From the NCBI GenBank assembly GCA_012735465.1, contig JAAYHJ010000072.1, positions 1-33,739 on the forward strand: 33,739 bases of DNA, given 5' to 3'. The notes under the pieces are model-generated. The model made no database searches. It was not told the origin of the DNA and worked only from the letters and a program-made list of their open reading frames with translations. Below, in pieces: positions 6,296 to 33,377 of the stretch; position 1 is the stretch's first letter; every line of letters starts with the position of its first letter. Made by a program: the position numbers and the translations under genes. The DNA comes from Clostridiaceae bacterium (GTDB lineage Bacteria > Bacillota > Clostridia > SK-Y3).

Positions 6296-6324
6296 ATTAT
6301 AACTGTATTTGTTTTAGCGGTAAA
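6296..6324 (-). promoter_or_regulatory. Sigma-A-type promoter of the nadD-leuS operon
   Basis: On the minus strand, TATAAT (6296-6301) is preceded by a 17-base spacer and TTTACC (6319-6324, 4 of 6 matches to TTGACA). It lies about 40 bases before the nadD start and after the thioredoxin terminator, so it is well placed to drive the five-gene operon. Confidence 0.6.
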
Positions 6325-6367
6325 GATGTAAAAAAGAGATAAAATAAATTATATGTATAAAAAAAGA

Positions 6368-6392
6368 CCGGAACTATACAAAAAAGTTCCGG
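6368..6392 (-). terminator. Intrinsic terminator after trxA
   Basis: An 8-bp stem (CCGGAACT at 6368-6375 with AGTTCCGG at 6385-6392) is followed on the minus strand by a TCTTTTTTTAT run. It ends the CsoR-family gene/trxA transcript before the nadD promoter. The opposite strand also has CTTTTT after the stem. Confidence 0.85.
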
Positions 6393-6438
6393 CTTTTTAA
6401 ACTCTTAACAATTTCTTAACTATTTTTTAATCATTTTA

Positions 6439-6768
6439 TTACAGGTGTCTTTCAATCATTGACACAAAATCCGATTTTGGTCTCGCACCAACTATCTTTT
6501 CCACTACTTCCCCATTTTTAAATAACATAATGGTCGGTATGCTCATTACACCATATCTAGCGGCCAAGTGCCTTTGATCATCCACATTGATTTTACCTAC
6601 TTTTGCCCTGCCCTGGAATTCATCGGCCAGTTCGTCTATTATCGGAGCTACCATACGACAAGGTCCGCACCAGCTAGCCCAAAAATCTACAAGCACAGGC
6701 AAATCGGAATTTTTTACTTCTGCATCAAAATTTTCGTTTGAAATGGTAAGTACCTTTTCGCTTGACAT
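6439..6768 (-). CDS. trxA: Thioredoxin
   Basis: A small cytoplasmic dithiol reductant. The 109-residue protein carries the canonical active site WCGPC within [20 protein letters not shown] and the cis-proline loop SIPT, so it should be redox-active. GGAGG lies ten bases before the ATG. It begins 51 bases after the CsoR-family regulator and shares that gene's promoter, with no visible promoter of its own. This suggests that the sensor's signal controls thioredoxin supply. No thioredoxin reductase gene is in the window. Confidence 0.95.
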
Positions 6769-6819
6769 AATGCATTGCCTCCTCTTAATAATCTATTTAA
6801 AATCCACCCTGCTAAAGGC

Positions 6820-7089
6820 TTATCTTATAAACTTTAAAACAATATCAATTAATTCATTAATGGTTTCTTCCTCGTCCTTTTTTTTAACTGCATCTTTTAT
6901 GCAGTTTCTTGAGTAGTTCTCCAGTATTAAGCCCCCTACCTTATTTATAGCAGCCCGTATTGCAGCTACCTGTACCAGAATATCCGAACAGCATTTATCC
7001 TGCTCCACCATTTTGTAAATTCCTTTTACCTGACCTTCTATGCGCTTCAAACGCTTAAGTATATCATCCTTACAACTATCATGCTGCAT
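6820..7089 (-). CDS. CsoR/CstR-family transcriptional repressor
   Basis: An 89-residue all-helical DNA-binding protein of the DUF156 family (CsoR, RcnR, FrmR, CstR). The family core RLKRIEGQVKGIYKMVE is clear. Placing it on the copper sensor CsoR, Cys34 and Cys63 keep the exact 29-residue spacing of the two ligand Cys. The His expected 25 residues after the first Cys is Tyr59. That C-x-C pattern without His is characteristic of CstR, the persulfide and sulfide sensor, rather than copper sensors. Additional Cys6, Cys33 and His3 leave some doubt. The ATG has GGGGG seven bases upstream. The promoter contains a palindrome typical of family operators, pointing to autoregulation of this gene and trxA. 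Confidence 0.88.
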   Translation of the reverse strand: MQHDSCKDDILKRLKRIEGQVKGIYKMVEQDKCCSDILVQVAAIRAAINKVGGLILENYSRNCIKDAVKKKDEEETINELIDIVLKFIR

Positions 7090-7103
7090 TATACCGCCCC
7101 CAT

Positions 7104-7120
7104 ATACCCCATAGGGGTAT
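7104..7120 (-). promoter_or_regulatory. Operator-like palindrome for the CsoR/CstR-family repressor
   Basis: ATACCCC (7104-7110), a 3-base centre, then GGGGTAT (7114-7120) form a perfect 7-bp inverted repeat. CsoR and CstR operators are known to be G/C-tract palindromes of this form. It lies just downstream of the predicted start site (about 7124), where a bound repressor would block initiation or early elongation. Confidence 0.75.
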
Positions 7121-7130
7121 CTTCAATACC

Positions 7131-7159
7131 ATTATATGCCCTTTTTCTTACAATGTCAA
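7131..7159 (-). promoter_or_regulatory. Consensus sigma-A promoter of the CsoR-family gene-trxA operon
   Basis: On the minus strand a perfect TTGACA (7154-7159), a 17-base spacer and a perfect TATAAT (7131-7136) are present. A full consensus promoter is strong and fits an operon held down by a dedicated repressor. It lies entirely between the CoA-binding protein stop codon and the regulator gene. Confidence 0.85.
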
Positions 7160-7176
7160 TACCATTATTAAAATAT

Positions 7177-7560
7177 TTATTTGTTCGCATTAAGTTCAAC
7201 CAATACACATGCCTGTACGGTATTCAATCCTTTTTCTTCCGCCAGCTTTATTATTTCATCATTGAATGTGCCCGGCTGAAACCAAATATTTTTAATCCCC
7301 TTTTCTGCCGCTTCTTCAATAACCTTCATGCCATGCTTAGGTGCAACCACCATATCCACCACATCGGGAACTTCAGGAAGGTCCAACACGCTGGCATAAC
7401 ATTTTTCTCCTTCTATTTGCTCATAATTGGGATTTACAGGATATACGGTATATCCATTGCTTTTAAGCTTTTTAAATATCTTGTAACCATATTTATCCCT
7501 ATTTTCGCTGGCTCCTACCACGGCCCAGGTTTTCATCTTCAAAAGCTCTTTTTCCTTCAA
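7177..7560 (-). CDS. CoA-binding domain protein (YccU type)
   Basis: A small single-domain Rossmann protein of the CoA_binding_2 family. The N-terminal nucleotide-binding stretch is TWAVVGASENRDKYGYKIFKKL, followed by GYTVYPVNPNYEQIEG and the late motifs KNIWFQPGTFND and ACVLVE. The biological role of stand-alone members is not well established; they resemble the CoA-binding domain of succinyl-CoA synthetase alpha. The frame opens with GTG at 7569, but AGAGGTGA overlaps that codon and is correctly spaced for the TTG at 7560, which I chose (127 residues). It follows yigZ by about 50 bases and is probably the last gene of the operon starting at the YtqB-type gene. Confidence 0.8.
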   Translation of the reverse strand: MKEKELLKMKTWAVVGASENRDKYGYKIFKKLKSNGYTVYPVNPNYEQIEGEKCYASVLDLPEVPDVVDMVVAPKHGMKVIEEAAEKGIKNIWFQPGTFNDEIIKLAEEKGLNTVQACVLVELNANK

Positions 7561-7609
7561 TTTAATCACCTCTTTTACCCAGTTTCCATTTATCCTTTTA
7601 CAGTTTTAT

Positions 7610-8269
7610 TCAAATTAACTGCCTTCCCTGCTCATCCACTGCAATGTATTTTGTATCTTGTTTTTTAATAATTACCCTTCCGTTTGTAATATCAACCATC
7701 TTTTTTATAAACTGGTCCGATTGTTCGGTGAGCACAAGAACATTTATAGTTACATCCTGTTCATACACGATTCCATCAATAATATGCCCAGAGTTAGATA
7801 TTTCATGCTGTATTTTGCCCAGCAATGTATAGTCCGACTTGATTTGGATACAATCGCAGAGCTGCATGGTAATTATGCCTGCAGCCACCAGTCCTTCTTT
7901 TGCACTCCTGCCATAAGCTCTAACCAACCCTCCGGCTCCCAAGAGAGTTCCTCCAAAGTAGCGGGTTACCACCACAACCACGTCATGAAGCTGCTCTTTC
8001 TTTATTACTTCAAGGGTTGGAATACCTGCCGTACCTGCCGGCTCTCCGTCGTCACTGTACCTTTGTATATTGCCGTCGCCAATAACATATGCATACACAT
8101 TATGAGTTGCATCCCAGTACCTTGATTTCATTTCATCTATGAAGCGGATAGCCTCTTCCTCAGTGGACACCGGCTTCACGGAAGCAATAAACCTCGACTT
8201 TTTTTCCACTATCTCAGCTTGTGCCTGACGATATACCGTCTTATAATTATGTTGTTTTTTCCCATACAC
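7610..8269 (-). CDS. yigZ: YigZ/IMPACT family protein
   Basis: This UPF0029 protein has the IMPACT N-terminal fold, with KKSRFIASVKPVSTEEEA, the DATHNVYAY segment, the RYSDDGEPAGTAGIP motif and the VVVTRYFGGTLLGAGGLVRAY motif, plus a DUF1949-type C-terminal domain. Length (219 residues) is normal. Its bacterial function is unclear; a role in translation regulation is suggested only by eukaryotic IMPACT. It starts with GTG two bases after the hflX stop codon, with GAGG inside the end of hflX, so translation is probably coupled. Confidence 0.9.
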   Translation of the reverse strand: MYGKKQHNYKTVYRQAQAEIVEKKSRFIASVKPVSTEEEAIRFIDEMKSRYWDATHNVYAYVIGDGNIQRYSDDGEPAGTAGIPTLEVIKKEQLHDVVVVVTRYFGGTLLGAGGLVRAYGRSAKEGLVAAGIITMQLCDCIQIKSDYTLLGKIQHEISNSGHIIDGIVYEQDVTINVLVLTEQSDQFIKKMVDITNGRVIIKKQDTKYIAVDEQGRQLI

Positions 8270-10427: not shown

Positions 10428-12505
10428 TTATATGGAATCTGCTATTGACTTTATCAGCTCTTCCTTGCTCGTTACAGGCGACTGGCATGAAAAATTTTGA
10501 CATACATAAGCCGTTGCCTTGCCATTTAATTTTTTCTGGCCTTTTATGAAAGGGATCATATTGAGTAAGGTTTCCCCATCCTCTTCCTCTGCATTAAGTA
10601 TGCTTACCACATTGGGCAAAAAAGTTTTGTGAATAATCTTTATCATTTCACGGGTATCACTGCTGTTTCTTTCTCCTGCCACTACAATTTCCTTTGAACC
10701 ATACAGTGCAAACATCACCGCTATCAAAAAATAAGTATGTCCGCCCGGCACCTCACTGATAATGCCCCCAAAGGCACTAAGCTGCTTATCTGCAAACTGC
10801 TCAAGTTTTTGGTCTCCCGTCAAGCGTGACAGGCGCAGTAAATTCAGCGCTGCAACCGAATTGCCTGACGGAATTGCTCCGTCATATACTTCTTTTGGGC
10901 GGGCAATGAGCTGCTCCCCGTCCTTTCCATACAAAAAGAAGCCGCCCTTTTGATCATCCCAAAAGTACTTTATCATTTCCTCGTTTATAGCAACTGCCTT
11001 TTCAAGATAAAACGGTTTATAGGTGGTCTGGTACAGCTCAATAAGCCCCCATGTTAAAAAGGCATAATCATCCGCATAGGCAAGGTAAGCTGCCTGTCCG
11101 TCCCTGTATCGTGCCAGCAGCCTTCCGTCTTCTCTTACCAGATTTTTAAATATAAACCCTGCTGCTTTTTCGGCAGCTTCCGTATATGCATCATTTTCCA
11201 ATATGCGTCCGCCCATTGCCATTGCAGCGATCATCAGTCCATTCCAGGAGGTTAGAATCTTATCATCCTTATACGGATGTATTCTTTTAGCCCGATGGGT
11301 AAATACTCTATGTCTTAGAACCGAAATATTATCTTCCTTTTCATTAACATTTTCTTTTGCATGTATACGATTTGGAATGCTTTTGCCTTCAAAATTCCCC
11401 TTGTCGGTAATATCATAGTAACTGCAGAAAAGCTCTCCGTCTTCTTCTCCGAGAATGTCTATAATTTCCTTTTTAGTCCATAAGTAAAACTTTCCTTCTT
11501 CGCCTTCCGAATCGGCATCTTCAGCCGAATAGAAGCCGCCTTCTTCAGATACCATGTCCCTTAAAACGTAGGCAAATATTTTTTGTGCAACCTCAGCATA
11601 TATTTCTTTTTGGGTCGCCTGATATGCTTCCAAGTAAGCAATTGCCAAAAGCGCATTGTCATAAAGCATTTTTTCAAAATGCGGCACCAGCCATTTTTTA
11701 TCCGTGGAATACCTTGAAAAGCCTCCGCCTATGTGATCAAAAATGCCTCCCCTATACATCCCTTCCAATGTTTTTTCCACCATTTCCAAGGCCCTTTGTT
11801 TGCCTGTTGCCTTCCAATAGCGCAATAAATACAGCAGATTATGGGGTGTGGGAAACTTAGGTGCACTGCCGAATCCCCCATAAACCGGATCAAAAGAATT
11901 CTCCAGCCATTCAAAAGCTTCATGCAATACATCGGTGGATATTGTACCCCTTTTACTATCCTCCATGAAATGGTAAGAGATATTCCTGGCAATTTCTTCT
12001 CCCGAGCGCATTAATCTATCCTTATCTTTCCTCCACGCCTCACTCACCCGGTTTAATATATCTATTAAGCCGGGAATACCCATCCGCCCATGCTTTGGAA
12101 AATAGGTTCCTGCAAAAAACGGCTTCTGGGTGGGAGTCATAATTACAGTTAATGGCCAGCCTCCCTGGCCGGTCAGCGCCTGGCAGAAAGTCATATATAT
12201 ATTATCAATATCCGGCCTTTCTTCCCGGTCAACTTTTATGGAAACAAAGTTTTTGTTTAAAATCTCTGCAACCTCTTCATCCTCAAAGCTTTCTCTCTCC
12301 ATAACATGGCACCAATGACAGGTTGATTTTATAACCAACACTAGGAGTACCCAATAGACAGAAATATCGGCTTATCTTCGAGCTTGGCTTTATCAAAGGC
12401 TTCCTGTCCCCAGGGGAACCAATCCACCGGATTATAAGCGTGCTGCAAAAGATAAGGCGATTTCTCATTTATCAATCTATTGGGTACAGCATTATTGTTA
12501 GCCAT
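10428..12505 (-). pseudogene. yyaL: YyaL-type thioredoxin-domain protein (DUF255), split into two frames
   Basis: Homologues are single proteins of about 680 residues with an N-terminal thioredoxin-like DUF255 domain and an (alpha/alpha)6-barrel resembling N-acylglucosamine 2-epimerases; their function is unclear. Here the N-terminus ([20 protein letters not shown]..., ATG at 12505 with AAGGTG upstream) runs to FLSIGYS and stops at TAG (12343-12341). The family sequence resumes 20 bases later in another frame as STCHWCHVMERESFEDEE, then runs uninterrupted to 10428. A GTG overlaps the stop by one base (TAGTG) and could restart translation, giving a 637-residue second piece that keeps the CHWC active site but lacks the first strand and helix of the thioredoxin fold. 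The rest of the gene shows no decay, so it is either a recent lesion, a functional split, a recoding site or an assembly error. Confidence 0.85.
12324..12343 (-). other. About 20 extra bases interrupting yyaL before the CxxC motif
   Basis: On the minus strand, codons ATT GGG TAC TCC (I-G-Y-S) are followed by 20 bases beginning TAGTG and ending ATCA, then ACC TGT CAT TGG TGC (T-C-H-W-C). Removing the 20 bases restores the expected family sequence exactly. The segment is not an obvious clean duplication of its flanks. Confidence 0.8.
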
Positions 12506-17739: not shown

Positions 17740-18891
17740 TTATTTTCGTCCCCAGTTTCTCCAGAAATCAAAGAATCCTTTTAATGTGTTTGCAATTTTA
17801 CTGGTAAAGGTTTGGGCCGTCTGTTGGCTTTCTTTATATTTTATTACCTGATACAACATCTGTGCCGCTTCAGCCCTTGTTACCTTATTAAAAGGACGGA
17901 GTGTATTGTCTTCATATCCGGTTATAATACCATATCCCTTCATATTTTTTACAGCTTGTACTGCCCACAGCGGAATCTGGTCCTTGTCAGCAAAAGTGAG
18001 CGGGTCTTTATTTTCAGCATCGGGGTCTATGGCATTGTTTAAAACCATAATTGTTTCTATCCTTGTCAACTGGCCGAACGGATGGAAGTAAATGCCGTCA
18101 GCTTCCTGTGAGCCGTTCATAACCCTTGCTTTCCTTGCCGCTTTTGCTTCCATAATAACCCAATGGGGTATATCGGCTTCATCTGCAAATTTAATTTCAT
18201 TAAGGTCTTCGTCATCTAAATCAAGCTGCAATGCTGCCGACACAAACAACAGGAATTCTGCCCTGTTCATAACTTTATCCGGATCAAAGTAGTATTTATC
18301 CCTAATCTTTTGACCCACAATTATGCCTTTTTCTGCAAGCTTGCTTGCAGGATAATGGGCCCAGTGGGTAAGAAGGTCTTTATAGGGGAAAGTGATAACC
18401 GGTTCCTCAGGCTTTTCCGGCTCTTCCGGTTCTTCAGGTTCTTCAGGCTCTTCCGGCTCTCCCTGTTCAGCTTTAATTAGTACTGTAACTGTTGCTACAT
18501 TGGAGTCCAATTCCCCATCATTGGCTTTAAATTCAAATGAATCTTCCCCTTCAGCACCTTCGTTCGGAGTATAGATAAAATTACCCGTTCCCGTATCCTG
18601 CAGGGAAACAGTCCCTTTGGAAGGTTGGGTGACAATCTCAAACACAAGAGGATCACCATCAGGGTCAGTTGCTGTTAGTGTCCCTTCTACAGCGGTATCT
18701 TTTTCTGTTTCTATTGTCATATTGGCTGCTTCAGGCTGTTTATTTTCTTCCTGTGCTAAAACAGCGGTATCAAAAGGGACAAAAAACATAAACAACATAA
18801 GTAGTACCAGTATTGATGCAAAATGTCTTTTAAAATTTCTTCTATTCTTAGCTTGGTTTAAATACTTTTTCTGTATATTTTTGCTGTTCAA
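17740..18891 (-). CDS. SLH-domain surface protein with cadherin-like module
   Basis: An S-layer-anchored protein of 383 residues. The signal peptide (hydrophobic core SILVLLMLFMFF, cleavage near VLA-Q at residue 46) is followed by a cadherin/Ig-like module (about 54-140) with TATDPDGDPLVFEIVTQPSKGTVSL and GEDSFEFKANDG. A Glu-Pro linker (145-164) comes next, then three SLH repeats (about 169-220, 234-290 and 298-350), each with the helix pattern and TR-E or NRAEF segments that bind pyruvylated cell-wall polymer. It carries no catalytic domain, so it may be an adhesive or structural cell-surface protein. The start is TTG at 18891, supported by AGGAGG seven bases upstream. It is divergent from the MATE gene. 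Confidence 0.9.
   Translation of the reverse strand: MNSKNIQKKYLNQAKNRRNFKRHFASILVLLMLFMFFVPFDTAVLAQEENKQPEAANMTIETEKDTAVEGTLTATDPDGDPLVFEIVTQPSKGTVSLQDTGTGNFIYTPNEGAEGEDSFEFKANDGELDSNVATVTVLIKAEQGEPEEPEEPEEPEEPEKPEEPVITFPYKDLLTHWAHYPASKLAEKGIIVGQKIRDKYYFDPDKVMNRAEFLLFVSAALQLDLDDEDLNEIKFADEADIPHWVIMEAKAARKARVMNGSQEADGIYFHPFGQLTRIETIMVLNNAIDPDAENKDPLTFADKDQIPLWAVQAVKNMKGYGIITGYEDNTLRPFNKVTRAEAAQMLYQVIKYKESQQTAQTFTSKIANTLKGFFDFWRNWGRK
18400..18459 (-). repeat. Glu-Pro-rich 9-base minisatellite in the SLH protein linker
   Basis: Six to seven imperfect 9-base units encode EPE/EEP tripeptides (residues 145-164). Third-position changes (CCT/CCG, GAA/GAG) break the identity, which suggests an older expansion kept for linker function. 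Unit number could still vary by slippage. Confidence 0.8.
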
Positions 18892-24236: not shown

Positions 24237-26472
<2,236 letters not shown>

Positions 26473-28247: not shown

Positions 28248-29222
28248 TCATCTCATTTCAATGCATTTCCTAGGACACTTGATAACGCACTGCTCACAAC
28301 CCACACATTTATCTTCTATCACCCTGTGCTTGCTTTTTAGCTCCCCTTCTATCGCATCAAATTTGCACTGTTTCTTACAAATGGTACAACCGATGCATGC
28401 ATCTTCATTAATATATGCTTTTTTAATTTCTGTCTTGCCCTGGATAATCTTGGTAGGGCATTTCACAACACACTGGGAGCAATTTACGCATTTGGAAGCA
28501 TCAATAACTGCAATATTATCTATAACATGTATTGCATCAAATTTACATGCCTTTTCACAAATTTTACATCCAATGCAGCCGACCTGGCAGTAGCTTTTTA
28601 CCACTTTGCCCATGTCCCTGGACTTACACCTTACCCAGGTCTGCTGGCTTGCCGGCATAAGCTCAATTATATTTTTGGGACAGGCTTTTGCGCATCTGCC
28701 ACAGGCAGTGCATTTTTCCGGGTCGATAACCGCAATACCGTCAACAATTTCAATGGCATCAAACATGCATACCTTTACACAGGTTCCCAAACCCGTACAC
28801 CCATAAGAACAGCCTTTAGAACCTCCCCACAGCTTGGAAGCGGCAACACAGTCATCTATACCATAATATTCATATTTTTCCTTAGCCTTATCCTTTGTAC
28901 CACGGCATAAAACCCTGGCAACCTTTTTTTCCATTTTTTCAGCTGTTACACCCATGATATCAGCAATAACTGCCGCACAGGACGCCCCACCTACCGGGCA
29001 ACCGTTTACCGGAGCTTTTCCTTCTACCACTGCTGCTGCAAAAGCAGCACATCCTGCAAAGCCACAACCTCCGCAGTTTGCACCGGGTAGTGCCTCGGTT
29101 ATACGCGGAATCCTTTCGTCCACTTCAACCGCAAACTTCTGGGATGCATAAGCCAGAAGCGAACCAAACGCAAGTCCCATTCCACCTAAACTGAGTACCG
29201 GTGCAAGTATTTTATCTATCAT
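28248..29222 (-). CDS. rnfB: Rnf complex subunit RnfB, iron-sulfur protein
   Basis: RnfB is the likely ferredoxin-facing subunit of the Rnf complex. An N-terminal hydrophobic anchor (residues 4-26) is followed by the four-Cys Fe-S domain C50, C53, C58, C75 (GANCGGCGFAGC). Six further [4Fe-4S] motifs are visible, with first to last Cys about 138-152, 171-181, 216-226, 245-255, 276-286 and 306-316. The total of seven is far more than the three of the roughly 190-residue enterobacterial RsxB. Long clostridial and acetogen RnfB proteins are known, so this is an expanded but not unique form. It is the last gene of rnfCDGEAB. Confidence 0.95.
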   Translation of the reverse strand: MIDKILAPVLSLGGMGLAFGSLLAYASQKFAVEVDERIPRITEALPGANCGGCGFAGCAAFAAAVVEGKAPVNGCPVGGASCAAVIADIMGVTAEKMEKKVARVLCRGTKDKAKEKYEYYGIDDCVAASKLWGGSKGCSYGCTGLGTCVKVCMFDAIEIVDGIAVIDPEKCTACGRCAKACPKNIIELMPASQQTWVRCKSRDMGKVVKSYCQVGCIGCKICEKACKFDAIHVIDNIAVIDASKCVNCSQCVVKCPTKIIQGKTEIKKAYINEDACIGCTICKKQCKFDAIEGELKSKHRVIEDKCVGCEQCVIKCPRKCIEMR

Positions 29223-29251
29223 ATATATACACCCCCAATTCTACCAATAAG

Positions 29252-29833
29252 CTATAGTTTCAGTCCTTGGAAGCCCAAAAATGCTATAGAAAGCAGCGCT
29301 GCGGTAATAAGCGCAATGGGAAAACCCTGCAATGCTTTAGGAATATTGGAAAGTTCCAGCCTTTCCCTTACTCCCGCAAACAATACGATAGCCAACGTAA
29401 ATCCAAGGGCTGCCGCTGTACCATTAAAAAGTGAACTTATAAAATTATACTCTTTTTGAATATTCAAAATTGCTACCCCTAACACCGCACAGTTTGTTGT
29501 TATAAGGGGAAGATAAACTCCTAAAGCCTGATACAAAGTCGGGCTTATCTTTTGAATTACCATTTCTACAAACTGCACTAAAGCAGCAATAACCAATATA
29601 AAGGCAATGGTCTGCAAATATTCAATATTAAAAGGTACTAGTATAAATGTCTGCACCAGCCAGGTAATCATGGAAGCTAAAGCCATTACAAAAGTAACAG
29701 CCATTCCCATTCCAATGGCGGTTTCCACTTTCTTTGATACGCCCAGAAAAGGACAAATACCTAAAAACTTTACCAATACAAAATTTTCAATTAAAATGGC
29801 TCCCAAAACAATTGCAATCAGTTCCCTAATCAT
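29252..29833 (-). CDS. rnfA: Rnf complex subunit RnfA
   Basis: Integral membrane subunit of 193 residues with six predicted membrane helices. The conserved first-helix region [21 protein letters not shown] carries the Cys that helps bind a membrane [2Fe-2S] cluster together with RnfE, and [11 protein letters not shown] carries the second. It is homologous to NqrE. The ATG shares bases with the rnfE stop (TGATG), so translation is coupled. Confidence 0.95.
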
Positions 29834-30438
29834 CAGGTTTCACTCCTTCCTTTCCTTTGCGACCACCAGTTTATAACACCCAGTATGGTTCCAAGAGTTA
29901 GAAATCCCCCCGGTGCCAGAATCATAATGATAGCTGGTTGAAATCCTTCACCAAATAGTTTTAGTCCCAGAAATGTTCCATTACCTAGTATTTCTCTTAT
30001 ACTGGCAATAACTATAAGGGCAAGCGTAAAACCCAGACCCATACCCAGGCCGTCTGCCGCAGACCTGGCAACGTCGTTTTTTGACGCAAAGGCTTCTGCC
30101 CGTGCAAGTATAATGCAGTTTACAACAATCAGCGGTATAAAAATACCCAGCGATTTAGAAAGGGACGGAAAATACGCTTTAAGTATCATGTCAATCAAGG
30201 TAACAAAACCTGCAATTATTACAATAAACGCAGGAATTCTTATCTTGGAAGGAATGAATTTCCTTAACAGAGAAATAACCACGTTTGACCCAATCAACAC
30301 CATCGTTGCCGACAGGCCCATACCTATTCCATTTGTTACAGAAGTGGTAACCGCCAGAGTAGGGCACATGCCAAGAAGCAGTACAAATGTTGGGTTTTCC
30401 TTTATAATACCGTTCAAAATATCCTTATGCACACTCAT
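29833..30438 (-). CDS. rnfE: Rnf complex subunit RnfE
   Basis: Integral membrane subunit of 201 residues, homologous to NqrD and inverted in topology relative to Rnf[21 protein letters not shown] and [16 protein letters not shown] contain the two membrane Cys that complete the cluster site with RnfA. The gene begins 13 bases after rnfG and ends in the rnfA start codon. Confidence 0.95.
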
Positions 30439-30451
30439 TGTGTTATCCCCC

Positions 30452-31030
30452 CTACTGATTTATCTTTTCTTTTATAACTTTTACAGCACTGTTCACACCC
30501 TGTGTAACCGCATTGGACGTGATGGTAGCACCGCTTATAGCAACTATCTCATTATCTGCAGGTGTGCCACTCTTTATAACCTTTAAGGGACTGTCTGTAG
30601 ACTTACCCTTGTACTGACCTTTGAACTTGGGCTCTGCAGCCTTGGAACCCAATCCCGGGGTTTCGGAGGAATTTACAATGGTAACGCCCGTAACCTTTCC
30701 CTCACTGTCTATTCCCACAACCATTTCAATGGGTCCGCCAAATCCGCTTGGCGCAACTCCCACACAATAACCAACCGCATTACCGTCATTCTTTCCTACA
30801 TAAACATTTTGAACCGTTTTATAATCACCTTCTCCAAGCCCTTTAACCTTGATTTCTTCAAATTCGGTTGCAGAAGGAAGTACTTCCTGCCTGGCCTCAT
30901 TTTGCGTTTTTATATTCAACTCATTAATCCTGTCTTCTGTTAATAGATTGCCCAGCGCCAGCATCAACGCTACTGCAAAGGTGATTGCAAATAAAATAGC
31001 GCCCAACCTTACAATTTCATTATTACGCAC
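30452..31030 (-). CDS. rnfG: Rnf complex subunit RnfG, FMN-binding
   Basis: Extracytoplasmic flavoprotein subunit of 192 residues with one N-terminal membrane anchor (GAILFAITFAVALMLALGNLL). The FMN_bind domain contains VGIDSEGKVTGVTIVNSSETPGLGSKA and the SGATITSNAV motif, whose second Thr is the expected site of covalent FMN attachment. The start is GTG at 31030, supported by GGAGGTG upstream, and overlaps the end of rnfD by 8 bases. Confidence 0.94.
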   Translation of the reverse strand: MRNNEIVRLGAILFAITFAVALMLALGNLLTEDRINELNIKTQNEARQEVLPSATEFEEIKVKGLGEGDYKTVQNVYVGKNDGNAVGYCVGVAPSGFGGPIEMVVGIDSEGKVTGVTIVNSSETPGLGSKAAEPKFKGQYKGKSTDSPLKVIKSGTPADNEIVAISGATITSNAVTQGVNSAVKVIKEKINQ

Positions 31031-32012
31031 GGGACTTCACCTCCCCAAACTTTACAGGTGCCGTATAGCGGTCAATAAGCGGTGTTGCAACGTTCATTAT
31101 AAGGATGGAATAGGAAACACCTTCCGGATACCCTCCATACAAGCGAATAATGGAAGTAATTAATCCGCAACCAATACCCATGATAATTTGTCCTTTAGGT
31201 GTAACAGGAGAAGATGCATAATCGGTTGCCATAAAAAAAGCACCCAGTATTAAGCCGCCCGAAAGTATATGATAAAGGGGATCTCCTGTAAACAATCCGT
31301 CTTTACCAAATACAAAGGTAAATACCGCTACCGTCGCAATAAACGTAACAGGAATTCTCCAACTTATTACCTTTTTATATATTAAATATAAGCCGCCAAG
31401 AAGCAGCATTATAACCGATGTCTCACCAATACAACCTCCAATATTTCCCATAAAAAGATCCAGATAGCTGACAGAAACCTGGCCTACTGCTTCCGTTCCC
31501 TTTATAATGGCCAGGGGAGTAGCAGTGCTTACAACATCCGCAGTGTTACCAAGGGGAAGCTTAGTAAAAGGTTCCACCCACCTGGTCATGTCAACCGGCC
31601 ATGATGCCAGCATAAAAGCTCTTGCGGCCAATGCCGGATTCATAAAATTTTGGCCCAGTCCGCCAAAGAACTGCTTTACAACGATAATCGCAAAAAAGCC
31701 ACCTATCACAGGCATCCATAATGGTATTGTAACAGGAAGATTAAAAGCAAGAAGTATACCCGTTACCACGGCACTCCAGTCATTTATCGTAACCGACCTT
31801 TTTGTAAGCTTTTGCCATATATATTCTGCTGCTACACAGCTTATTACCGATACGGCTGTCACCAGCAACGCCCTTATCCCAAAGTAATATGCTCCTGCAA
31901 TCAGAGCAGGGCAAAGCGCAAGTACAACATCAAACATAATGCTGCTTATCGTTTCATCCGACCTCACATGAGGAGATGAAGAAACAACTAATCTATTGTT
32001 AATCATTTGCAA
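31023..32012 (-). CDS. rnfD: Rnf complex subunit RnfD, FMN-binding membrane protein
   Basis: Polytopic subunit of 329 residues homologous to NqrB. It begins with the cytoplasmic SSPHVRSDETISSIMFDVVLALCPAL typical of RnfD. The motif DVVSTATPLAIIKG carries the Thr expected to bind FMN covalently. FFGGLGQNFMNPALAARAF and ATDYASSPVTPKG are conserved. RnfD is thought to take part in ion translocation. It lies 42 bases after rnfC. Confidence 0.95.
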   Translation of the reverse strand: MQMINNRLVVSSSPHVRSDETISSIMFDVVLALCPALIAGAYYFGIRALLVTAVSVISCVAAEYIWQKLTKRSVTINDWSAVVTGILLAFNLPVTIPLWMPVIGGFFAIIVVKQFFGGLGQNFMNPALAARAFMLASWPVDMTRWVEPFTKLPLGNTADVVSTATPLAIIKGTEAVGQVSVSYLDLFMGNIGGCIGETSVIMLLLGGLYLIYKKVISWRIPVTFIATVAVFTFVFGKDGLFTGDPLYHILSGGLILGAFFMATDYASSPVTPKGQIIMGIGCGLITSIIRLYGGYPEGVSYSILIMNVATPLIDRYTAPVKFGEVKSRA

Positions 32013-32054
32013 ACCCCCACTTTTTCCCCTTTTTTTAGCAGTAAATTGCCTTAA

Positions 32055-33377
32055 CTATTTTGCTTTCCTTTGTGCAAGAATTAATTGTTTAGCCTCCCGT
32101 ATATATTGTACCAGATGCCTCTTGGACGGACAAACATATGAACAGCTACCACATTCAACGCAATCTGCGCAATTATAGGCCTCTGCTTTTTCCAAATCCT
32201 TATTGCCGGCATAAGCGCTCATATAAACAGGGAGCAAATTCATAGGACATGCTTCCACACATTTCCCGCAGCGTATGCACGGCTTTTCCGGCTGTAATTC
32301 CACCTCTTTAGCGGTAAATGCAAGCAGTCCCGATGTGCCTTTAACAACAGGTACATCCAGAGAAAACTGGGCTATTCCCATCATCGGTCCACCCATCACA
32401 ATTTTAGCAGGTTCTTCTACAAAACCCCCCGACTGTTCAAATAATACCTTAAAAGGAGTACCAATTCGTACAGCGTAATTTGCAGGATTACGGACAGCAG
32501 AACCGGACACCGTCACAATTCGCCTTATCAAAGGCATTCCAGTTTTAATTGCACGTGCAATAGAAACACAAGTATCTACATTGTTAACAATTGCACCTAC
32601 ATCGGCAGGCAACCCTCCCGATGGCACTTCCCGCCCGGTAATTACCTTTATAAGCTGTTTTTCCGCACCCTGTGGATATTTGGTCTTTAACACTACAATT
32701 TCAATTCCCTTTTCTTTATCTGCATACTCCTTAAGTTTTTGGATGGCATCCATCTTATTGTCCTCAATGCCTATATATCCTTTATTCAATCCAAAAACCT
32801 TCATCATGGCTTTTAATCCATAAATAATCTCTTCGGGTGACTCCAACATAACCCTATGGTCTGAGGTCAAATAGGGCTCACATTCCGCACCGTTTACAAT
32901 CACATATTCAATTTTTTTATCCGGTGGTGGAGATAGCTTTACATGGGTTGGGAATCCGGCACCGCCCATGCCTACAATACCTGCTTCCCTCACAATTTCG
33001 ATAATCTTTTGGGGTGTAAGAGAGGCAATATCCCCCTTTGGAACCACACTTTCGTGTACGGTATCCTGGCCATCATTTTGTACAATAATGGACATTACCT
33101 TGGTTCCATTTGGAGCGAGATATGGTTCAATTGCAACTACCTTTCCCGACACGCTGGCATGAATAGGCGCACTTACATATGCTTTTGAATCTGCAATCTT
33201 TTGCCCCAACTTTACTTCATCTCCCACGGCAACCAATGGTTCACAAGGCGCACCAATATGCTGCTGCAAGGGGAATATCAATTTTTCCGGCGCTTTCAAA
33301 TCGGTAATCGGTATTTTTTCTGTTAAATGTTTATTATACTTAGGATGAATACCACCCTTGAACGTTAAAATCTTCAA
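32055..33377 (-). CDS. rnfC: Rnf complex subunit RnfC, NADH-binding
   Basis: Peripheral subunit of 440 residues that exchanges electrons with NAD(H). The N-terminal RnfC domain (FPLQQHIGAPCEPLVAVGDEVKLGQ) is followed by the NuoF-like flavin/NAD region with GMGGAGFPTHVKL, INGAECEPYLTSDHR and the SLBB-type segment. Two ferredoxin-type Cys motifs close it, from CIRCGKCVEACP (residue 367) and CADCVECGSCSYVCP (403). The N-terminal lipoyl-like fold (HASVSGKVVAIEP) is present. The start is TTG with GAGGTGA about nine bases upstream. It is the first gene of the operon. Confidence 0.95.
   Translation of the reverse strand: MKILTFKGGIHPKYNKHLTEKIPITDLKAPEKLIFPLQQHIGAPCEPLVAVGDEVKLGQKIADSKAYVSAPIHASVSGKVVAIEPYLAPNGTKVMSIIVQNDGQDTVHESVVPKGDIASLTPQKIIEIVREAGIVGMGGAGFPTHVKLSPPPDKKIEYVIVNGAECEPYLTSDHRVMLESPEEIIYGLKAMMKVFGLNKGYIGIEDNKMDAIQKLKEYADKEKGIEIVVLKTKYPQGAEKQLIKVITGREVPSGGLPADVGAIVNNVDTCVSIARAIKTGMPLIRRIVTVSGSAVRNPANYAVRIGTPFKVLFEQSGGFVEEPAKIVMGGPMMGIAQFSLDVPVVKGTSGLLAFTAKEVELQPEKPCIRCGKCVEACPMNLLPVYMSAYAGNKDLEKAEAYNCADCVECGSCSYVCPSKRHLVQYIREAKQLILAQRKAK

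Follow-up and report, generated by a model that had tools for sequence, protein, structure and literature searches.

A clostridial CsoR-family protein as the candidate repressor of a thioredoxin and thiol-redox regulon

The csoR-trxA locus

The window, that is, the whole stretch of DNA analyzed, comprises 33,739 nucleotides of a Clostridiaceae genome. A CsoR-family gene, termed csoR here, and the thioredoxin gene trxA are found in it together with the following features.

7131..7159, minus strand: promoter of csoR-trxA, TTGACA-17-TATAAT, matching the consensus at 12/12 positions
7104..7120, no strand: candidate operator, the 17-bp palindrome ATACCCC-ATA-GGGGTAT, from its sequence and its recurrence upstream of csoR
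6820..7089, minus strand: csoR, gene of a putative repressor of the CsoR family (DUF156), 89 residues, from PF02583 and the translation
6439..6768, minus strand: trxA, 109 residues with a WCGPC motif (TIGR01068, 135.1 bits for a cut-off of 96.8)

The span up to 7159 singled out by an earlier sequence-only reading consists of the csoR gene and its promoter. The perfect consensus promoter and the ATACCCC/GGGGTAT palindrome at the start, both described in that reading, were confirmed. The promoter is the only 12/12 site within the 1.7 kb scanned, and the same perfect consensus precedes the orthologue in all five other genomes of the same family. The palindrome sits 10 nt beyond the -10 box.

The gap between csoR and the downstream trxA is 51 bp, and no terminator-like site was found by a scan of positions 6300-8000, from which we infer a single csoR-trxA transcript. 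The previous statement that trxA belongs to the same transcript therefore holds for the gene arrangement, co-transcription being deduced from it. Apart from this trxA, the assembly has no full-length PF00085 match; one further match is weak and partial. As had been noted, no rhodanese, copper ATPase or copper chaperone gene adjoins csoR; rhodanese and copper genes are present elsewhere in the genome.

Homologous loci were collected from named genomes (38 loci) and from relatives, of which 172/291 genomes had a match and 30 loci were fetched. C. tyrobutyricum is among the species with the orthologue (L034). Counts over 60 distinct loci were made after dropping eight duplicate or broken ones (L053, L057, L062, L063, L064, L065, L074 and L049). 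A trxA gene on the same strand follows csoR in 6/6 genomes of the family and at 21/60 distinct loci, in some cases with an RseC-like gene (named by eye) in between. In the five same-family relatives, a cysK-like gene is located upstream of csoR; one of these was confirmed as a PALP enzyme. Other csoR genes are found near aspS-like or housekeeping genes, or beside glutaredoxin-like or CcdA/TlpA-like genes (by eye). In the window, 18 bp separate the csoR promoter from the end of a gene for a CoA-binding-domain protein (7177-7569, minus strand). As this gene is found upstream of cysK-csoR-trxA in the relatives, the genome of the window seems to lack cysK at this place.

Metal-ligand positions of the CsoR-family protein

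The csoR product matches PF02583 with 98.8 bits (cut-off 22.8), which places it in DUF156 (CsoR/RcnR), and it is the sole PF02583 match found by profile search in the assembly (2.32 Mb, 98.6% complete). None of the NCBIfam cut-offs for FrmR (52.2 of 133 bits), RcnR (41.5 of 138) or RicR (65.5 of 175) was reached. The closest sequence match in the PDB is 4m1p (E 7e-22).

The fingerprint of copper CsoRs, in the part of the source consulted (PMC4235346), consists of Cys-His-Cys at positions X-Y-Z, with second-shell Tyr (A) and Glu (B); the ligands of M. tuberculosis CsoR are Cys36, His61 and Cys65, with Tyr35 at A. Counting on the translation and alignment with the M. tuberculosis protein, the corresponding X-Y-Z residues are Cys34, Tyr59 and Cys63 with the same spacing, as had been read from the sequence; the ligand His is replaced by Tyr59. 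In the second shell, Tyr is replaced by Cys33 at A, and Glu79 is kept at B. The protein has the two conserved cysteines without ligand His that mark CstR-type members. It is a tested member of DUF156 only, and a likeness to CstR or TTHA1953 would be one of analogy at most.

Cys6 and Cys33 had been called atypical. This does not apply to Cys33, since 35/75 relatives have a cysteine there; Cys6 is rarer, with a cysteine in 3/68 aligned rows, and 13/60 orthologues have a cysteine somewhere within the first 12 residues.

Variation of position 59 and phylogeny

Of the 68 rows, 67 retain both Cys34 and Cys63; the exception (L049) is a frame-broken copy. Position 59 is Tyr in 47 rows and His in 20. 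All five same-family orthologues have His at this position, with trxA downstream and cysK upstream. At least nine changes between His and Tyr were counted among the 75 rows of the clade (53 Tyr, 22 His) on one weak tree, built without columns 33 and 59. A candidate operator with at most one mismatch and the trxA linkage were each found at 8 of the 16 His loci, and at 12 and 13, respectively, of the 44 Tyr loci. As operator and trxA linkage occur with His and Tyr alike, the missing His cannot carry a functional argument, and the original deduction of sulfur sensing from its absence was abandoned. Tyr33 and His59 appear to be coupled (12/5/10/48 rows, Fisher p 7e-5), which is only suggestive as the rows are related and include only two independent starred pairs.

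The full tree comprises 117 rows and 93 columns, and 51 of its 114 inner branches are open, so its resolution is weak; L025 was left out. The 75-row clade was cut from it by hand, leaving out 37 copper-side rows and five CstR, FrmR and L188 rows. In this weakly resolved tree the window protein groups with the same-family rows (support 81), and the placement proposed as a check separates it from its family's copper-linked paralogues.

Two CstR rows form a starred branch of their own, apart from the window protein, in the same weakly resolved tree; the position of this branch is unsure because it is long. Membership of the CstR subfamily, which the missing His might suggest, was rejected, as the CstR rows branch apart and the same-family orthologues keep His with trxA downstream.

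Occurrence of the candidate operator

An exact search for ATACCCCNNNGGGGTAT found no second copy in the window or in the genome. A near-match in the window (18155-18171) and an exact match to ATACCC-N5-GGGTAT on another contig (C70:14387) both lie inside coding sequence. Upstream of csoR, a site with at most one mismatch is present at 20/60 distinct loci, against 0/60 for the reversed pattern. Within the family of six genomes, G005 lacks a site of two or fewer mismatches in front of csoR.

Exact ATACCC-N5-GGGTAT sites were counted in 28 genomes chosen for carrying the orthologue, with the reversed pattern as control. There were 40 exact sites versus 9 reversed; in 20 genomes without a CsoR match, the numbers were 3 and 5 (40:9 versus 3:5, Fisher p 0.017). 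Ten genomes with weaker CsoR matches only had 7 versus 3, six of the seven belonging to tandem pairs at csoR-copA. One genome without CsoR match (G043) has an exact copy of the 7-3-7 palindrome (C17:50893-50909), with no gene of at least 50 residues starting close by.

All 40 contexts were read by eye. Thiol-redox or iron-sulfur genes follow 30 of the sites, six of which are the promoters of csoR itself, some genomes being close relatives. The targets, classed by eye with ten proteins checked against Pfam and ten against NCBIfam, were as follows.

csoR-trxA: 6
ccdA, or its divergent promoter with a glutaredoxin or CoA-disulfide-reductase-like gene: 7
trxA and/or trxB-like gene: 6
small ferredoxin: 4 (one followed by glutaredoxin)
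membrane 4Fe-4S proteins: 5
glutaredoxin: 1
rhodanese: 1 (in G085)

With TIGR01292 (cut-off 343), the trxB-like proteins reach 200-217 bits; the CoA-disulfide-reductase-like protein, clipped by a contig end, scores 525 against 579. Five further sites lie inside coding sequence and five have ambiguous contexts, near a ZIP transporter gene, an MgtE-like gene (far off), a hydrolase gene, an arsenite-methyltransferase-like gene and a contig end. These ten leftover sites are about as many as the nine of the reversed control. The site at the arsenite-methyltransferase-like gene (L230, G260 C41) is a possible link to arsenic, as is one at a second trxA with an Acr3-like neighbor (by eye; L154, G001 C120). 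Elsewhere in the latter genome (L144, C23), a DUF302-like gene (by eye), in two pieces, lies between the operator and a trxB-like gene.

Only exact sites were considered enriched, because those with at most one mismatch number 55 versus 55 reversed in the five relatives and 14 versus 9 in the genome of the window. Of the 14, two are the csoR-trxA and ccdA promoters and ten fall within coding regions; the last two precede an ABC ATPase gene and an ilvB-like gene. The context was viewed for 28 of the 55. One-mismatch sites also precede membrane 4Fe-4S proteins (G001, G004) and a rhodanese (G003).

A scan of ccdA starts found this gene in 24/28 genomes, with a site of at most one mismatch within 300 bases in eight of them (G000, the genome of the window, and G063, G089, G156, G159, G219, G221 and G260); by the same scan, the ccdA genes of G002-G005 have none. 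No operator within three mismatches was found in the 500 bases scanned at the rhodanese gene of the window's genome. Next to csoR there is no gene of the kinds linked to CstR, for a sulfurtransferase, persulfide dioxygenase or sulfite exporter.

Copper genes and copper-linked paralogues

Besides the orthologue, each of the five same-family relatives encodes one or two additional DUF156 proteins. Five of these (L085, L086, L088, L090 and L091, from G002-G005) adjoin copA- and/or copZ-like genes and keep the His. In 4/5 relatives, copper-linked CsoR paralogues are thus separate from the orthologue. In the remaining one (G001), L089 groups with the copper-linked paralogues in the tree, with no copper gene seen in the stretch examined. 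L087 adjoins another metal P-type ATPase. G/C-rich palindromes precede L085, L086 and L089, with different flanks and spacing by reading; ATACCC-N5-GGGTAT was not found there within one mismatch, the closest site having two mismatches and a spacer of 6 (L085). Cross-binding between these palindromes and ATACCC-N5-GGGTAT is conceivable.

The genome of the window has its own copper cluster (L099, C34:15000-30000), with a two-component system, an HMA-TauE-like protein, copA and copZ; the HMA was identified by profile and the rest by eye. This cluster lacks a CsoR, whereas the relatives carry one at their copper genes. No operator within two mismatches was found between its genes, the closest sites having three. 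The proposed genome search for further operator copies thus returned promoter copies at csoR-trxA and ccdA, and none at the copper cluster. The pattern that would have counted against the initial proposal, with operators only at copper genes, was not seen either: no copper gene was noticed at any of the 40 exact sites of the 28 genomes. The same exact site is however found in tandem at csoR-copA of copper CsoRs of other Clostridia (L238, L239, L242), so the kind of sensor cannot be told from the site alone.

Discussion

As the operator recurs before thiol-reducing genes in many Clostridia, the regulator probably senses sulfur-chemistry stress rather than copper. We consider it fairly probable, judging from gene contexts and operator sites, that csoR encodes the autorepressor of a clostridial thioredoxin and thiol-redox regulon, released by sulfane-sulfur or disulfide modification of Cys34 and Cys63. 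The sequence-only reading already included thioredoxin control and a thiol or sulfur theme; they are retained on other grounds, namely operators before thiol-redox and iron-sulfur genes and none seen at copper genes in the 28 genomes, while its arguments from the missing His and from CstR are not. Weighing against the autorepressor reading are the equal one-mismatch counts in the five relatives, the lack of a site at csoR of G005 and at ccdA of G002-G005, the use of the same site by copper CsoRs of other Clostridia, and the failure of TTHA1953 to respond to NaHS.

By occupying ATACCC-N5-GGGTAT at the start of the very strong promoter, a tetramer, as expected from the family, would keep csoR-trxA expression low. 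In the genome of the window, a further probable target is ccdA, whose product is a transmembrane electron carrier of the DsbD type. In relatives, the targets would include trxA with a trxB-like flavoprotein devoid of NADPH motifs, glutaredoxin, a small ferredoxin, membrane 4Fe-4S proteins and rhodanese. Release from the DNA would follow when sulfane sulfur (persulfide, polysulfide) or disulfide stress modifies Cys34 and Cys63' across the dimer interface. The thioredoxin then made would reduce persulfides and disulfides, and it may reset the repressor by a feedback like that of thioredoxin-2 with SqrR. TrxA of S. aureus is reported to reduce the persulfide of a protein in vitro (PMC6196236).

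All four trxB-like proteins that were read keep one CxxC and lack both GGGxS[AG] and HRR. These are the motifs of NADPH-type thioredoxin reductases. Retention of CxxC without them suggests ferredoxin-linked reductases, which we take such proteins to be from work on clostridial FFTR. With ferredoxin, glutaredoxin and CcdA, the regulon looks like an electron route to disulfides and persulfides.

With the Cu(I)-sensing CsoRs of M. tuberculosis (2hh7) and G. thermodenitrificans (4m1p), the protein shares the fold family, Cys at X and Z, Glu at B and a G/C-tract type of palindrome. It differs by Tyr in place of the ligand His, Cys in place of the second-shell Tyr, and trxA and ccdA rather than copA and copZ as targets. 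The persulfide sensor CstR (S. xylosus L109, S. pneumoniae 7mq1) has in common with it two conserved cysteines, no ligand His and a sulfur theme, but has Asn instead of Tyr at the ligand position, occupies its own tree branch and regulates cstA, cstB and tauE. SqrR of Rhodobacter is reset by thioredoxin-2 (TrxC), in the part of the source consulted, and resetting of a sulfur-sensing repressor by thioredoxin is also proposed here. SqrR belongs to the unrelated ArsR family, and here the thioredoxin gene would itself be a target of the repressor.

The excerpts available on two-Cys DUF156 proteins describe responses to thiol chemistry for TTHA1953 of Thermus, which controls the thioredoxin gene SoxW (PMC10318464), and for YrkD of B. 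licheniformis, whose cluster contains the thioredoxin gene YdfQ (PMC9918477). They report cysteine modification for CstR and, by disulfides, for TTHA1953 (PMC9918477, PMC10318464), and no response of TTHA1953 to NaHS (PMC10318464). According to the same excerpts, TTHA1953 and YrkD resemble the present protein as CsoR-family members with two cysteines and thioredoxin genes under control or in the cluster, but they govern sox or sqr/pdo sulfur oxidation, whereas here the set is thioredoxin, ferredoxin and ccdA, with trxA in the csoR operon. No clostridial CsoR-thioredoxin regulon was found in the literature searched, judging by titles and abstract openings.

The protein could still be a Cu(I) sensor, binding copper through Cys34 and Cys63', together perhaps with one of His3, Cys6 and Cys33, and raising thioredoxin because copper oxidizes thiols. 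The family, the Cys34/Cys63 spacing and Glu79 are all compatible with this, same-family orthologues have the full Cys-His-Cys set with Tyr at A, the genome carries copA and copZ with this protein as its sole DUF156 member, and copper CsoRs elsewhere share the operator letters. We nevertheless hold copper sensing to be quite unlikely. The ligand His is Tyr59, and Cys33 replaces the second-shell Tyr that hydrogen-bonds it, in the excerpt of PMC4235346; the promoters of the copper cluster lack the operator, 4/5 relatives have separate copper-linked paralogues, and no copper gene was seen at the 40 exact sites. Sensing of another thiol-reactive agent (arsenite, an electrophile or formaldehyde) through Cys6, Cys33, Cys34 and Cys63 is unlikely too. 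It would fit the two sites with an arsenic context (L230 and, by eye, L154), the N-terminal cysteines of some orthologues and the partly consulted report on FrmR, a sensor of an aldehyde with the same fold (PMC5016687). The arsenic context is however limited to 2/40 sites, no arsenic or formaldehyde gene adjoins csoR in the window, and a cysteine equivalent to Cys6 is as rare as noted above.

A true CstR-subfamily member that recruited trxA seems very improbable. The two cysteines without His at the ligand position would agree with it, as would the rhodanese genes that follow the operator in G085 (L222) and, at one mismatch, in G003 (L159). Against it, the two CstR rows carry Asn there and branch apart, on a long branch of unsure place, the nearest relatives are His-bearing clostridial proteins, and no cstA, cstB or tauE gene adjoins csoR.

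Beyond the thiol-redox autorepressor favored for this genome, a broader reading, for and against which we see the balance as even, is that a widespread and so far unnamed clostridial DUF156 lineage runs the thioredoxin regulon as a sulfane-sulfur or thiol-stress switch. The regulon would consist of trxA, a probably ferredoxin-linked trxB, glutaredoxin, ccdA, ferredoxin, membrane 4Fe-4S proteins and rhodanese. In this lineage the His/Tyr swap would leave operon and operator unchanged, so that the ligand fingerprint would not predict function. To our knowledge, little has been described of the regulation of thioredoxin systems in strict anaerobes. A switch made of a single protein, with an operator that can be read from sequence, would allow tests of this regulation across Clostridia. 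Since orthologues with and without His share operon and operator here, the His position alone should not be used to assign CsoR-family proteins to copper or persulfide.

Other redox genes were noticed by eye on the minus strand of the window. A DUF255/YyaL-like gene with a thioredoxin domain (10428-12500) looks frame-broken in the assembly, as the reading frame of its N-terminal part, near 12330, is a different one. A GltA/NfnAB-like pair (24237-26472) and an Rnf-like cluster (28248-33377) are both ferredoxin-linked.
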